A stretch of 50,134 nucleotides of DNA. It comes from Candidatus Omnitrophota bacterium (GTDB lineage Bacteria > Omnitrophota > Gorgyraeia > JAGLLT01). The translations under genes and the position numbers were made by a program. The notes under the pieces were generated by a model. The model saw only the letters and a program-made list of their open reading frames with translations. It was not told the DNA's origin and ran no database searches. This document shows positions 14,041 through 45,256 of the stretch, one piece after another. The DNA is taken from contig JAGLLT010000008.1 in assembly GCA_023140385.1 (NCBI GenBank), forward strand, positions 1 to 50,134, read 5' to 3'. The first letter of the stretch is position 1. The number at the start of each line of letters is the position of its first letter.

Positions 14041-14131
14041 GGAGAGATGCCAGAGCCCGGTTTATCGGGGCCGCCTCGAAAGCGGCTGTCCGCTTTGCGG
14101 ACCGGGGGTTCGAATCCTCCTCTCTCCGCCA
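14041..14131 (+). tRNA. tRNA-Ser(CGA)
   Basis: A full cloverleaf with the long class II variable arm: acceptor GGAGAGA/TCTCTCC, anticodon loop CTCGAAA (CGA, serine codon TCG), T-loop TTCGAAT and encoded CCA. Its 3' trailer is a TCTGCTTCGC hairpin repeat and a GIY-YIG gene follows 61 bp later. Confidence 0.95.
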
Positions 14132-28160: not shown

Positions 28161-28263
28161 GGAGAGGTGCGAGAGCGGCTTAATCGGCGCGCTTGGCCAC
28201 CGCCTATGGCGGGGTCCCGCTCTCTTCATTGAAGATACTTCTTTCGGAGAAGCGGTGAAAAGC
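28161..28263 (+). repeat. tRNA-Ser 5'-half repeat unit A
   Basis: Begins GGAGAGGTGCGAGAGCGGCTTAA, the acceptor, D-arm and anticodon-stem 5' strand of tRNA-Ser, breaks off at CGCTTGG in the anticodon loop and continues with CCACCGCCTATGGCGG and a CTTCT/AGAAG hairpin. The unit repeats almost exactly at 28511. Not a functional tRNA: the anticodon 3' strand, variable arm and T-arm are absent. Confidence 0.8.
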
Positions 28264-28275
28264 GAAACAAGAACT

Positions 28276-28524
28276 ATGTTTTACGTTTATATCTTGAAAA
28301 ATAGTGAAAGCAAATATTATACTGGAATGACATCTAAGCCCCCTGAAGCCAGATTAAAAGAACATAATTCTAATGCAAATAAGTGGACAAAAAATAAAGG
28401 TCCTTGGGGTCTTATTTATGCAAAAGCTTTTGAAACAAAAAAAGAAGCTTGGTTAAGAGAGCGTCAGATTAAAAAATATAAAGGCGGAAGTGCCTTTAAA
28501 GAATTAATCCGGAGAGGTGCGTGA
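28276..28524 (+). CDS. GIY-YIG domain protein between two tRNA-Ser half-copies
   Basis: An 82-aa protein with MFYVYILKNSESKYYTGMTS (a Y-Y-T-G version of the YIG strand), ARLKEHNSNANKWTKNKGPWGLIYAK and AWLRERQIKKYKGGSAF. ATG 28276 is chosen because the domain starts there; the frame opens 135 bp upstream in the repeat and would add tRNA-derived residues. Its 3' end overlaps the second tRNA-Ser half by 14 bp. Placement between two near-identical tRNA-half repeats suggests the gene moved or was duplicated with them. Confidence 0.8.
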   Translation: MFYVYILKNSESKYYTGMTSKPPEARLKEHNSNANKWTKNKGPWGLIYAKAFETKKEAWLRERQIKKYKGGSAFKELIRRGA

Positions 28525-28624
28525 GCGGCTTAAACGGCACGCTTGGCCACCGCCTATGGCGGGATCCCGCTCTCTTCATTGAAGATACTTCTTTCGGAGA
28601 AGCGGTGAAAAGCAATTATAACAT
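28511..28624 (+). repeat. tRNA-Ser 5'-half repeat unit B
   Basis: Nearly identical to unit A over about 103 bp and leads straight into the intact tRNA-Ser(GGA) at 28625. The 11 bp AATTATAACAT before the intact tRNA also precede unit A at 28150-28160, showing that the duplication included the promoter-proximal flank. Confidence 0.8.
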
Positions 28625-28712
28625 GGAGAGGTGCGTGAGCGGCTTAAACGGCACGCTTGGAAAGCGTGTGTACTTAACGGTACCCTGGGTTCGAATCCCA
28701 GCCTCTCCGCCA
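28625..28712 (+). tRNA. tRNA-Ser(GGA), integration site of the island
   Basis: An 88-nt class II tRNA: acceptor GGAGAGG/CCTCTCC, anticodon loop TTGGAAA (GGA, serine TCC/TCT), variable arm, T-loop TTCGAAT, CCA. Its final 27 bp are repeated at 44892-44918, marking insertion of the island into the 3' end while leaving the gene intact. Confidence 0.96.
28686..28712 (+). other. attL core (27-bp direct repeat)
   Basis: The tRNA T-arm and acceptor 3' strand, from TGGGTTCGAATCCCAG to CCTCTCCGCCA, identical to 44892-44918. Confidence 0.8.
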
Positions 28713-28724
28713 GCCTAATCCCAT

Positions 28725-28789
28725 AAGCAGTTAATTCCCTTGACGTTATATATAAAAGTAGTAAAATCAAGGTGTTAACTGCTTTTTGT
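28725..28789 (+). terminator. Palindrome after tRNA-Ser(GGA) with an internal promoter
   Basis: AAGCAGTTAA (28725-28734) pairs with TTAACTGCTT (28775-28784), plus CCTTGA (28738-28743) with TCAAGG (28767-28772), followed by a T run: a terminator for the tRNA. The loop contains TTGACG-16-TAAAAT, a possible promoter. The same structure is present in the second left end (about 35399-35458). Confidence 0.6.
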
Positions 28790-28889
28790 ATTTTTATATA
28801 AATCTTGCATATTTTTATGTTTTTTGAGACTTGTGACACGAAAATGACACGTTATAGCAAATAATAGTTTAACCTAAGGGAGGTTATTA

Positions 28890-28931
28890 ATGGATGGTTA
28901 TGATGCTGCGTTTGTAGCCCCCTGCACATAG
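28890..28931 (+). pseudogene. Truncated first copy of the 428-aa gene
   Basis: ATG 28890 starts MDGYDAAFVAPCT and stops at codon 14 (TAG). The intact copy at 35564 reads MDGHDNAFIAPDTW. The downstream frame continues homologous up to residue 42, then passes into the HTH domain. Confidence 0.75.
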
Positions 28932-28994
28932 ACTTCCCTTATTAACAAGTTGACTACCGAAGTTAACGTAGTCACTAAAAATATTTCCAACATA

Positions 28995-29207
28995 ATGTCT
29001 ATGGTAGAAAAAAGCTGGTCTCAACAAAAACTCGCTCAGGAAGCAGGATTATCCTTTAATGCAATAACAAAAATTGAACAGGGACTAGCAAAATATCCAA
29101 CACTAAAAACTCTTAGCAAATTGTCTAATGTTTTTCAAATTGGCATAGATGAATTAGTTGGAAGAGGAAAAACAAATTTTATTAGGATTAAAAATGGAAA
29201 ATTATGA
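28995..29207 (+). CDS. XRE-family HTH regulator preceding the giant NTPase
   Basis: A small helix-turn-helix protein: SWSQQKLAQEAGLSFNAITKIEQGLAKYPTLKTLSKLSNVFQIGIDELVG is a complete XRE DNA-binding domain. ATG 28995 gives 70 aa; ATG 29001 or the TTG at 28950 are alternatives. Residues before the HTH (MSMVEKS) come from the N-terminus of the 428-aa gene copy, so the regulator is fused in frame at the repeat breakpoint and may have lost its own start. Its stop overlaps the giant gene's ATG by 14 bp, indicating translational coupling; it is probably a repressor of the module. Confidence 0.8.
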   Translation: MSMVEKSWSQQKLAQEAGLSFNAITKIEQGLAKYPTLKTLSKLSNVFQIGIDELVGRGKTNFIRIKNGKL

Positions 29208-35382: not shown

Positions 35383-35387
35383 GCCAG
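35355..35387 (+). other. Degenerate att-like junction
   Basis: TGAGTTCGAAT...GCCAG resembles the tRNA-Ser core TGGGTTCGAAT...GCCAG and lies in the same position relative to the left-end repeat as attL does, consistent with a decayed internal attachment site from a tandem insertion. Confidence 0.4.
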
Positions 35388-35688
35388 TGTAATCCCATAA
35401 GCAGTTAATTCCCTTGACGTTATATATAAAAGTAGTAAAATCAAGGTGTTAACTGCTTTTTGTATTTTTATATAAATCTTGCATATTTTTATCTTTTTTA
35501 AAATTTATGTCACGAAATTGACACGCCATAACAAAAGATAATTTAATTTAAAGGAGGTCATTTATGGATGGCCATGATAATGCGTTTATAGCCCCCGACA
35601 CATGGATCCTCCCTATTGCTAAGTTGACAGATGAAGTTAACGTATTCACTAAAAATATTTCCAATGTGACGTCTATGGTAGAAAAAAG
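35383..35688 (+). repeat. Island left end, copy 2 (306 bp)
   Basis: The second copy of the 28709-29014 sequence. Here the reading frame is open and enters the full 428-aa gene, so this is probably the original left end of the island. Confidence 0.85.
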
Positions 35689-38311: not shown

Positions 38312-38515
38312 GTGGAAAGATTTGTAAGCATAAGTGAAGTATCAAAGTTTTTGGATGTGAAAGAATCAACCTTGTATGTTTGGAGATATAAAGGCATGAT
38401 TCCCTGCTACAAAGTAGGGGGTAGGGTGCTTTTTCGATTATCAGAATTAAACAAGTTCGCTGAATCATTTAAACAGCCGGTATTGGCAAAACCGGCAGTA
38501 AGAATAGCAGGGTAG
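38312..38515 (+). CDS. Excisionase-like HTH_17 protein
   Basis: A 67-aa MerR-like helix-turn-helix protein: FVSISEVSKFLDVKESTLYVWRYKGMIPCYKVGGRVLFRLSELNKFAES is a standard excisionase-family (HTH_17) domain that binds near att sites and sets the direction of recombination. It starts at GTG 38312 after AGGAGG and is 9 bp from the integrase ATG. Presumably controlled by the XRE repressor. Confidence 0.85.
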   Translation: MERFVSISEVSKFLDVKESTLYVWRYKGMIPCYKVGGRVLFRLSELNKFAESFKQPVLAKPAVRIAG

Positions 38516-38524
38516 TAATAAGAC

Positions 38525-39580
38525 ATGGGCGTAGTTTACAAAAGAAAAGATAGCCCTTGCTGGTGGCTGGCTTATTCAGCGGGAGGGCAAAGGATAAGAG
38601 AAAGCTCCGGTACTGCTTCGAAATTACTTGCCAGAGAAATCCTGATCCGAAAGGAATCCGAAGTTTTACTTTCCGGGGGCAGCAGAGTTTTCTTAAAAAA
38701 ATCTGTAGAGGTCTTTGTTTCTGATTATTTAGAATGGATAAAGGTTAACCGTCGTGAACATACTCTTCGGAGTTACACGACTATTCTAAAAACCTTCGTT
38801 AATTTTCTCAAGGACTATCCTAATATCAAAAACCTATCAGATATTACGTCCAAACTGCTTGAAAATTATAAACAGTATAGATTAGCTCAAGCTAAAACCT
38901 GTACACTAAAAAATCATGTAATTGTTTTAAAGGCCTTTTTTTGTAAAGCAGTAGAGTGGGATTGTTTATCTGAAAATCCGGCTAAAAATTTAAAATCGGT
39001 CGAAATAATTGATTCGAAACCAATTAAAGTATTAACGGAAGAAGAGTACACTGGATTTATGACTACCTGCAAAAGTGAATTTAAAGAATTTTATCCTATG
39101 TTTTATACTTTTATACACACCGGATTAAGAAAATCAGAGCTTCTTAGTCTTGAGTGGAAGGATGTAGATTTTGAAAGAGGTTTAATATATATACGCAATA
39201 AAGAAAATTTTCGGCCTAAAGGAATAAATAAAAAAACAGGTAAAGCCAAAGAAAGAATAATTCCCATACACGATAATCTCAAGCGGGTATTAACAAACTT
39301 ACCGAAAAACAACCCGGTTCTATTTGGGCCATATTCAAAACATATGCCAAGACGAGTTCTTATAAGAATAGCAAAAAGAGCAAACATCACCGGCCTTACC
39401 AGATTGCATGAGCTTAGACATTCATACGCCACATTTCTATTGAAAAAAGGCGTGGATATATATAAAATAAAAGAGTTATTGGGTCATTCTGATATAAGGG
39501 ATACTATGAAGTATGCACATTTACCCACAGTTCATATGAAAGAGGATGTGAAGGTATTGGAAAATTTAGATAATGCTTGA
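38525..39580 (+). CDS. Tyrosine recombinase (integrase)
   Basis: A 351-aa phage-type integrase. It has an N-terminal SAM-like DNA-binding region (LRSYTTILKTFVNFLKDYP) and a complete catalytic domain: Arg in TFIHTGLRKSELLSLEW, His-x-x-Arg in LHELRHSYATFLLKKG, His in ELLGHSDIRDTM, and Tyr in MKYAHL. It should integrate the island at the tRNA-Ser(GGA) 3' end. Unusually it lies in the middle of the island, some 10 kb from the left and 5 kb from the right att site, which suggests cargo was added at both sides. Confidence 0.93.
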   Translation: MGVVYKRKDSPCWWLAYSAGGQRIRESSGTASKLLAREILIRKESEVLLSGGSRVFLKKSVEVFVSDYLEWIKVNRREHTLRSYTTILKTFVNFLKDYPNIKNLSDITSKLLENYKQYRLAQAKTCTLKNHVIVLKAFFCKAVEWDCLSENPAKNLKSVEIIDSKPIKVLTEEEYTGFMTTCKSEFKEFYPMFYTFIHTGLRKSELLSLEWKDVDFERGLIYIRNKENFRPKGINKKTGKAKERIIPIHDNLKRVLTNLPKNNPVLFGPYSKHMPRRVLIRIAKRANITGLTRLHELRHSYATFLLKKGVDIYKIKELLGHSDIRDTMKYAHLPTVHMKEDVKVLENLDNA

Positions 39581-43814: not shown

Positions 43815-44600
43815 ATGACTTTAATAGTTGGTGTTAAATGTAATAATGGGATAGTAATTGGAGCCGATAGCGCCTCAACTAATACTACAAGCACGGGTCA
43901 GCAAACTGCAATGCAACCCACCAAGAAGTTAGATATCATTGACGATAATATAATTGTTGGTATTTCTGGATCTGTTGGGTTAGCGCAATTCTTTAAAGAG
44001 GAAGTCGAAAAGCTTTGGAAGAATAATGCTTTTTCAAATAAGGGAGTAGAAGAAGCAAGAATTAAAATTACTGGTGCATTCAGAACACATCTGATAAGAG
44101 AGGCAAAATTCGCGCAAGATTCGAGTAACATGTTAGGTCGATTGCATGAGCAGGAAATTATTTCTCATACTCTTATAGCAATGCCAGTTAAAAAGAATCT
44201 TGTACTTTTAGAATTTCCTGCTACGGGTTCATCTGAAGAAAAGAAAGAAGCGATGCCAACTGTAGCAATTGGATGTGCACAACCAATTGCAGACCCATTT
44301 TTATATTTTCTTAGGAGAGTTTTCTGGCCTGATAGGTTGCCTAGTTTAGTTGAAGGGAAAATAGCGGCTTATTGGGCATTAGATTATAGCATAAAAGCCT
44401 CACCAGCCAATGTTGGATTTCCCGTCAAAATAGCTATATTAGAAAAAAAGGGTAGCGATATAAAAGCTTATGAGTTACCCAAAGAAGAGCTCACATACCT
44501 AGGTAATATTGTTGACGAAGCAGAGAAATATTTAAAAAGATATGAAGCTCCTTCGGCAGAGGAGGACAGAATTGAAATCCCAAAACCTGAGAAAAAATAA
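43815..44600 (+). CDS. Proteasome-like Ntn hydrolase
   Basis: A 261-aa protein with the 20S proteasome beta/HslV-like N-terminus: MTLIVGVKCNNGIVIGADSAST. Removal of Met1 would leave Thr2 as nucleophile, with GADSA giving the conserved Asp and a Lys near 31-33 (PTKKLDIIDDNIIVGISGSVG). The rest has VPVKIAILEKK-like strands and a C-terminal tail (EIPKPEKK). HslV is about 175 residues; the extra ~80 residues are unusual. No ATPase partner (HslU, Mpa) is encoded nearby. CAGGAG is 8 bp before the ATG. It may be a protease toxin or processing enzyme regulated by the upstream Panacea-like protein; this is inference. Confidence 0.7.
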   Translation: MTLIVGVKCNNGIVIGADSASTNTTSTGQQTAMQPTKKLDIIDDNIIVGISGSVGLAQFFKEEVEKLWKNNAFSNKGVEEARIKITGAFRTHLIREAKFAQDSSNMLGRLHEQEIISHTLIAMPVKKNLVLLEFPATGSSEEKKEAMPTVAIGCAQPIADPFLYFLRRVFWPDRLPSLVEGKIAAYWALDYSIKASPANVGFPVKIAILEKKGSDIKAYELPKEELTYLGNIVDEAEKYLKRYEAPSAEEDRIEIPKPEKK

Positions 44601-44891
44601 AATCTGCCTTTTGATATCCTCCGGGGAGGGAATCTTGGCCGAAAGCCGGAGGGCCAAACTATATTTGAATATCCATATTGTTTTAACTATAAACAGTTTT
44701 TTAGTGTCGAAAGGTAATTTTTTACTATAGATAGTATAGATTTTTTATTCATAATCAATATTAGATATTGTAAGAATTAATATGCAAGATCTAAGTAAAT
44801 GTAATAACTTTATTTATTGAAAGCGCACGATTTTAACACGTTGACATTTCCCATAGTCATAATATAATATAAATAAAGATGTTATGGAGAG
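44601..44891. other. Non-coding right end of the island
   Basis: No gene. It contains two overlapping inverted repeats, CCTCCGG/CCGGAGG (44618-44624 with 44646-44652) and TTGGCC/GGCCAA (44635-44640 with 44652-44657), possibly a terminator region, then AT-rich sequence and a strong promoter at 44841-44868. Confidence 0.6.
44841..44868 (+). promoter_or_regulatory. Strong promoter facing the right att site
   Basis: TTGACA (44841-44846), 16 bp, TATAAT (44863-44868). RNA would start near 44875 and run directly into the minihelix at 44886. Its distance to GGAGAG (17 bp) is similar to that of the tRNA-Ser(GCT) promoter to its tRNA (23 bp). Confidence 0.75.
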
Positions 44892-44918
44892 TGGGTTCGA
44901 ATCCCAGCCTCTCCGCCA
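44886..44918 (+). ncRNA. tRNA-Ser minihelix (acceptor stem plus T-arm) at attR
   Basis: GGAGAG (44886-44891) pairs with CTCTCC (44909-44914) and encloses TGGG-TTCGAAT-CCCA, ending GCCA. This is a 33-nt acceptor/T-arm minihelix with encoded CCA behind a consensus promoter; such minihelices are known RNase P substrates. It may be an element-encoded RNA, or a tRNA-Ser gene with its middle deleted. Confidence 0.5.
44892..44918 (+). other. attR core (27-bp direct repeat)
   Basis: Identical to 28686-28712. Downstream sequence resumes as TTCTACTTCGC, the hairpin repeat that also follows tRNA-Ser(CGA), marking the chromosome side. Confidence 0.75.
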
Positions 44919-44919
44919 T

Positions 44920-44960
44920 TCTACTTCGCTAACTATTTACATATTTAGCTTCGTAGGAAT
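44920..44960. repeat. TCTRCTTCGC hairpin repeat after attR
   Basis: Same family as 9100-9140: TCTACTTCGCTAAC...TTAGCTTCGTAGGAAT, with the G-to-A change in the first arm matched by C-to-T in the last (CTAC/GTAG in place of CTGC/GCAG), preserving outer pairing. Confidence 0.7.
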
Positions 44961-45256
44961 GGGCTTTTTCATTCTGCTATGCCATTCTACGTTTTTAGCA
45001 GAGCTATTTATCCACCGAAGCTATAAGCGTAGGTGGGCGGCTGGCAGGCCAGTTTACGCTAGCCAACTCCGCCGGCCGGGAAGCCATAAATTTTAATATA
45101 TTAAATATAGCAAAAAATTATCCCTTCTCCTCCCCCCCTCTTTCCGCGATTAAAAAAGATTAAAAAATTCTTGCTTTTTAACTGGACTTAATGTATAATA
45201 TATTTTGTGCTATAAAAAAGCTGTTATTTTTTCAGGAAAGGCAGGTGTGTCTAAAA
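44961..45256. other. Gap with short palindromes, no gene
   Basis: Contains CCACCGAAGC...GTAGGTGGG and CTGGCAGGCCAG palindromic segments of the intergenic repeat type, and a pyrimidine-rich stretch. No open frame is convincing. Confidence 0.5.

Follow-up and report, generated by a model that had tools for sequence, protein, structure and literature searches.

Among mobile elements that integrate at tRNA 3' ends, the closest described systems are a group of ICEs. For ICEKp1, reporter and 5'-RACE experiments revealed a state-dependent switch comprising a promoter at the 3' end of the element, a displaced tRNA terminator, and stem-loops at the left end (PMC13023037). The same switch parts were demonstrated by reporter assays in ICEclc and ICEEc1 (PMC13023037). 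In ICEKp1, a 15-bp segment, at a place matching that of a GGAGAG hexamer discussed below, relieves an attenuator (PMC13023037). Two other lines of work are relevant. In the tRNA-dependent lysogeny of mycobacteriophages, the phage brings a whole tRNA with it and integration does not rebuild that of the host (PMC10865867). Minihelices such as pATSer, which are laboratory constructs, have been shown to be substrates of RNase P (PMC11221534).

The locus considered here lies near the end of the window, the whole 50,134-nucleotide stretch of Candidatus Omnitrophota DNA that was analysed. Positions 44826-44918 are best explained, with reasonable though not high confidence, as the P arm and core that form the right end of the attP of a composite tyrosine-integrase element residing in the 3' end of tRNA-Ser(GGA), with an outward promoter in the window's subfamily that would be used as in ICEKp1 and ICEclc, and with a tRNA-like pairing that is incidental. 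The duplicated core, the internal integrase, the homologous elements in other Omnitrophota, and the arm motif about 70 bp from the T-loop are the directly observed part of this explanation. The features are:

28625-28712, + strand: tRNA-Ser(GGA) rebuilt at attL, called by ARAGORN and Rfam; the left core is its final 27 bp (28686-28712).
28713-28810, + strand: left end of the element, with a conserved hairpin (28725-28784) followed by a T-run, directly after the host tRNA.
35383-35480, + strand: a further copy of the left end, inside the island and with a degenerate core ahead of it.
38312-38515, + strand: small HTH ORF just before the integrase, from the ORF translation.
38525-39580, + strand: tyrosine recombinase (integrase; Pfam Phage_integrase, 1.1e-26), 92% identical in amino acids to that of a Candidatus Zapsychrus exili element (contig L025).
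44826-44849, + strand: arm motif CACGATTTTAACACGTTGACATTT, overlapping the -35 hexamer, from an alignment of 12 ends and the spacing table.
44841-44868, + strand: putative outward sigma-70-type promoter, TTGACA-16-TATAAT, by sequence match.
44869-44885, + strand: 17-nt leader ending in GTTAT, a pentamer recurring across the family of ends.
44886-44891, + strand: GGAGAG slot, on the element side, predicted by folding to pair with CTCTCC of the tRNA tail.
44892-44918, + strand: right att core (T-arm, acceptor 3' strand and GCCA of tRNA-Ser), identical at 27 of 27 positions to 28686-28712.
44915-44969, + strand: hairpin with a T-run to the right of attR, from folding; probably the host tRNA's own terminator, displaced.

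A first-pass annotation of this DNA had placed here the right-hand attachment site of a tRNA-Ser island, and the island is well supported: an intact, rebuilt tRNA-Ser(GGA) stands at one end, a direct repeat of its 3' end stands at the other, and the integrase is encoded between the two cores. Identity between the right core, TGGGTTCGAATCCCAGCCTCTCCGCCA, and the tRNA 3' end extends over exactly 27 bp, attR lies approximately 16 kb from attL, and no further intact copy of the core was found within the island. When the flanks were joined in silico, the resulting attB showed the tRNA and, after it, a hairpin with its T-run. Close relatives yielded no empty site, and the right-flank protein was absent from the three closest genomes searched.

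The left end of the element is present twice, at 28709-29014 and 35383-35688 (86% identical over 307 bp by self-comparison); this doubling, together with the degenerate core ahead of the second copy, makes the island look like a composite formed by tandem accretion of two elements. In the first copy the gene start is broken by a stop. The HTH ORF appears Xis-like, as judged by position and by eye. The cargo is of defence type. It includes a 2016-aa NTPase resembling Avs1b/Cap4, an MTase that may have a PD-(D/E)XK partner, a GmrSD/HEC-06 protein, and a proteasome-like hydrolase. The last of these (NTN hydrolase; 43815-44600) is the final cargo gene; together with its neighbours, a 144-aa protein resembling PADLOC PDC-M19A and the GmrSD/HEC-06 protein, it may make up a so far uncharacterised defence module. 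Just upstream of the intact tRNA there are two extra tRNA-Ser(GGA) 5' halves (28162-28250 and 28511-28600), both broken in the anticodon loop, with a GIY-YIG nuclease ORF (28277-28524) between them.

Related ends were collected by BLAST, pattern, and sequence-model scans of Omnitrophota genomes, yielding 17 others and thus 18 with the window (two in L025; one each in G422, G397, G310, G385, G048, G245, and G266; two in G187; three in G169; and one each in G216, G178, and G269). Pattern matches on contigs L080 and L081 (in G029 and G258) were false, having no core after them. The nearest relative by integrase, L025, comes from a genome of the same class; its element sits in tRNA-Ser(GCT), that of the window in tRNA-Ser(GGA). 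L025:11671-11755 matches window positions 44834-44918 at 93%, with the substitutions confined to the spacer between -35 and -10, the arm upstream of TAACACG, and one leader base, while the -35, the -10, and GGAGAG are identical. An older, degenerate copy of the right end lies inside L025 at 7819. No relatives were found in IMG/VR, either by integrase peptides or by exact end patterns, and among the matches listed for the phage and plasmid collections, only 28 bp of tRNA-Ser 3' end matched.

Several observations concern the arrangement of these relatives. Positions 1-105 of L025 equal positions 23-127 of L129, another contig of the same MAG; both carry the same tRNA-Ser(GCT) with its upstream flank, and the elements that follow differ, with integrases 37% identical, pointing either to strain variants or to competition for one site. 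The right end in G422 is directly followed, ahead of rex-nuoEF, by a 98-bp left-end copy (L126, reverse strand, 2334-2431); this copy is 91-95% identical over 98 bp to the other three copies of the left end, the window's included, and is probably the remnant of a second, tandem element. Contig L070 (G169:C64) holds at 98-2808 a cassette-like array of a methyltransferase gene, an att end, a Fic-family gene, and another att end, with the arm motif 9-92 bp past the stop codons; in several genomes the motif begins no more than about 25 bp downstream of a stop codon.

The related right ends share the arm motif CACAATCCTAACACGTTGAC, defined by alignment of 12 ends. In the form CACAATCCTAACACGTTGACwTTT, it is separated from the T-loop by exactly 70 bp in 12 of the 18 ends and by 69-72 bp in most of the others, the internal copy in L025 having a 5-nt deletion. 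The -35 hexamer falls within the motif. Because motif and spacing hold with or without a promoter, the arm appears to be primarily an attP arm site. The GTTAT just before the slot also recurs, with small changes, across the family.

The promoter itself lies where the first-pass annotation had read it, with TTGACA at 44841-44846 and TATAAT at 44863-44868, and it is the only 12/12 match to the sigma-70 consensus (spacer of 15-19 bp, either strand) in the window. A promoter with a 16-bp spacer and 10-12 of 12 matches was found in 8 of the 18 ends, including the window; in the other scored ends it is absent or weak (4-9 of 12 matches). At the level of sequence, an outward 3'-end promoter of the ICEKp1 type is conserved in these eight ends. 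It is doubtful, though conceivable, that the arm acts as DNA only, with TTGACA and TATAAT forming parts of binding sites for the integrase or accessory proteins and no working promoter. The region is AT-rich, and the -35 lies inside a motif that is also kept by ends with no -10; this last point bears on the preferred reading too, since it means that the promoter is not required for the role of the arm. A purely structural role fits poorly with eight ends that have a variable spacer yet keep a perfect or near-perfect -10 exactly 16 bp away, and with the window pair being the sole 12/12 match.

If the site is the right end of an element with an ICEKp1-like promoter, integration would have moved the host terminator hairpin to the right of attR (44915-44969), leaving the tRNA followed by the left-end hairpin (28725-28784). 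Both structures were found by folding, the left-end hairpin at -22 kcal/mol (z -5.3), and a hairpin like that at 44915-44969 also follows tRNA-Ser(CGA) at 14131. The strict terminator scans listed neither, and both were judged to be terminators by their folds. In the circular form, by analogy with ICEKp1, the promoter would fire across attP into the left-end genes, while in the integrated form it would face nothing but the tRNA tail and host terminator, both displaced, and would therefore give a short RNA at most. The integrase does not lie at the left end beside the tRNA; it is on the same strand, about 9.8 kb away in the window and about 5.2 kb away in L025. Since other genes precede it, the promoter in the circle would serve the entire left-end operon. 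Against this explanation, the integrase is not placed as in ICEKp1, and transcription from the circle might stop at the left-end hairpin, short of any gene. The loop of that hairpin holds a promoter-like TTGACG-16-TAAAAT between the inverted repeats GCAGTTAA and TTAACTGC, so the hairpin may act both as a terminator and as a regulated promoter. A role for the attR promoter in driving the downstream chromosomal genes is unlikely, because a terminator-like hairpin lies immediately 3' of the core.

The first-pass annotation further claimed that the promoter reads into a tRNA-Ser minihelix. Its coordinates for GGAGAG and the core are correct, and RNA folding reproduced the 6-bp acceptor stem and 4-bp T-arm, at -15.0 kcal/mol (z -3.0) and with a 2-nt bulge (GC) separating the acceptor from the T-stem. 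Its statement that the pairing arises only at this junction did not hold: GGAGAG is on the element side and so adjoins the core in the circular attP as well, and the same junction is found in two other genomes. Rfam gave no tRNA match at 44886-44918, only a weak similarity to the 3' end of tmRNA (10 bits, below the cut-off). An ORF at 44884-45096, for which GGAGAG might have served as a Shine-Dalgarno sequence or start, was not taken as a gene; its translation begins MESGFESQPLRH, which is the tRNA 3' end read through.

It had also been proposed that GGAGAG and the promoter be compared across related islands. The promoter recurred in a subset of them, and GGAGAG was kept in only 3 of the 18 ends, those of the window, L025, and G422. 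Elsewhere the slot reads GGAGAT, AGCAAT, GGCAAG, GGAAAG, GGAGTA, GCTTGA, AAAAAT, AGAAAC, ACTAAC, ATCCTC, CGAATA, TTTGTT, or AAAAAC. Conservation or covariation of the acceptor/T-arm pairing was not found among the relatives: three ends are identical, one pairs in another register, and most are unpaired, although several ends are decayed, and in those a missing pairing counts for less than it would in active elements. A perfect acceptor 6-mer this near the T-stem arose in 0.14% of dinucleotide shuffles of the arm; when slots were drawn from the profile of the related ends, GGAGAG had a p of 0.002, and the fold was equalled or bettered in 1.35% of draws. It is unlikely that the match is pure chance, though the figure is not extreme allowing for about 10 independent ends.

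These data bear on whether the minihelix is functional, that is, whether RNase P, RNase Z, or CCA enzymes recognise the acceptor/T-arm helix of an RNA made from the promoter, with a role as a decoy or as a processing or antitermination leader (for example by fixing the 5' end of the left-end operon when the element is circular). We regard such a function as unlikely. Its case is built on the stable fold, the slot statistic (which is unusual for a mere side-product and so also counts against the preferred explanation), the retention of GGAGAG in three elements from three host families, the activity of such minihelices as RNase P substrates in vitro (PMC11221534), and the attenuator-relieving segment at the same place in ICEKp1. 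Most related ends have no such pairing, however, and six nucleotides kept among three close elements are not significant alone. Two relatives are informative: in G397 the acceptor has changed with no compensating change in the slot, while in G245 a different slot and a different acceptor still pair, but in a register unlike that of the tRNA acceptor and beside a decayed T-loop. The pairing is probably a side-product of a mostly purine-rich, variable slot meeting the pyrimidine-rich acceptor of tRNA-Ser, a juxtaposition that favours pairing more than a uniform model would indicate. Most likely, GGAGAG pairs incidentally and has been kept by descent in one small clade. It is slightly less probable again than a functional minihelix that the attP of this one lineage forms a minimal tRNA-like gene, with promoter, CCA-ending minihelix, and terminator hairpin, and with host tRNA-processing enzymes used on the RNA. 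If so, RNA processing could define or stabilise the 5' end of the circular operon or relieve the left-end attenuator.

The first-pass annotation had also offered a tRNA-Ser gene with an internal deletion, in which the promoter and the 5' acceptor strand would be the remains of a complete gene. The layout of promoter, leader, and tRNA is gene-like, nearly all tRNA-Ser genes examined in these genomes begin GGAGAGG, in a few cases directly preceded by TTAT. Yet the promoter, GTTAT, and 70-bp spacing belong to the family's own arm and occur at related ends with no tRNA 5' sequence, where the slot is not tRNA-like; none of 44 tRNA-Ser 5' flanks resembles the arm (at best 9 of 14 matches over the last 14 nt), and none of 15 arm matches falls in a locus with a detected tRNA. 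Because leader, promoter, and spacing are the arm's own and the slot varies elsewhere, this highly improbable origin was rejected.

The preferred explanation, an element right end with an outward promoter, most closely resembles ICEKp1, ICEclc, and ICEEc1 (PMC13023037). The elements share integration at a tRNA 3' end, an outward 3'-end promoter that would cross attP in the circle, a host tRNA terminator displaced 3', and, following the tRNA, a stem-loop at the 5' end of the element. They differ in that the window element belongs to another phylum, has no recognised conjugation genes, carries a leader that can pair with the tRNA tail, and is known from sequence alone; its integrase lies behind other genes, whereas that of ICEKp1 is at the left end. 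Islands catalogued in Islander (PMC4383910) are recognised, as here, by having the tRNA rebuilt at one end and a 3' fragment of it displaced to the other; the window differs in having a promoter and a pairing 5' strand ahead of the displaced fragment. As in tRNA-dependent mycobacteriophages, the att site overlaps a host tRNA gene, but in the window the host tRNA is rebuilt and the element carries none. Any RNA transcribed from the site would resemble the minihelix substrates of RNase P, sharing with pATSer (PMC11221534) an acceptor stem stacked on a T-arm with CCA; unlike pATSer, it is an RNA predicted from genomic sequence, of 6+4 bp with a 2-nt bulge. The elements with a conserved attP arm at near-fixed spacing are apparently an undescribed family, and the window site offers a test case for whether tRNA tails displaced to att sites can turn into transcribed tRNA-like RNAs. 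The comparison suggests that the 3'-end promoter theme of proteobacterial ICEs extends to an unrelated phylum, Omnitrophota.
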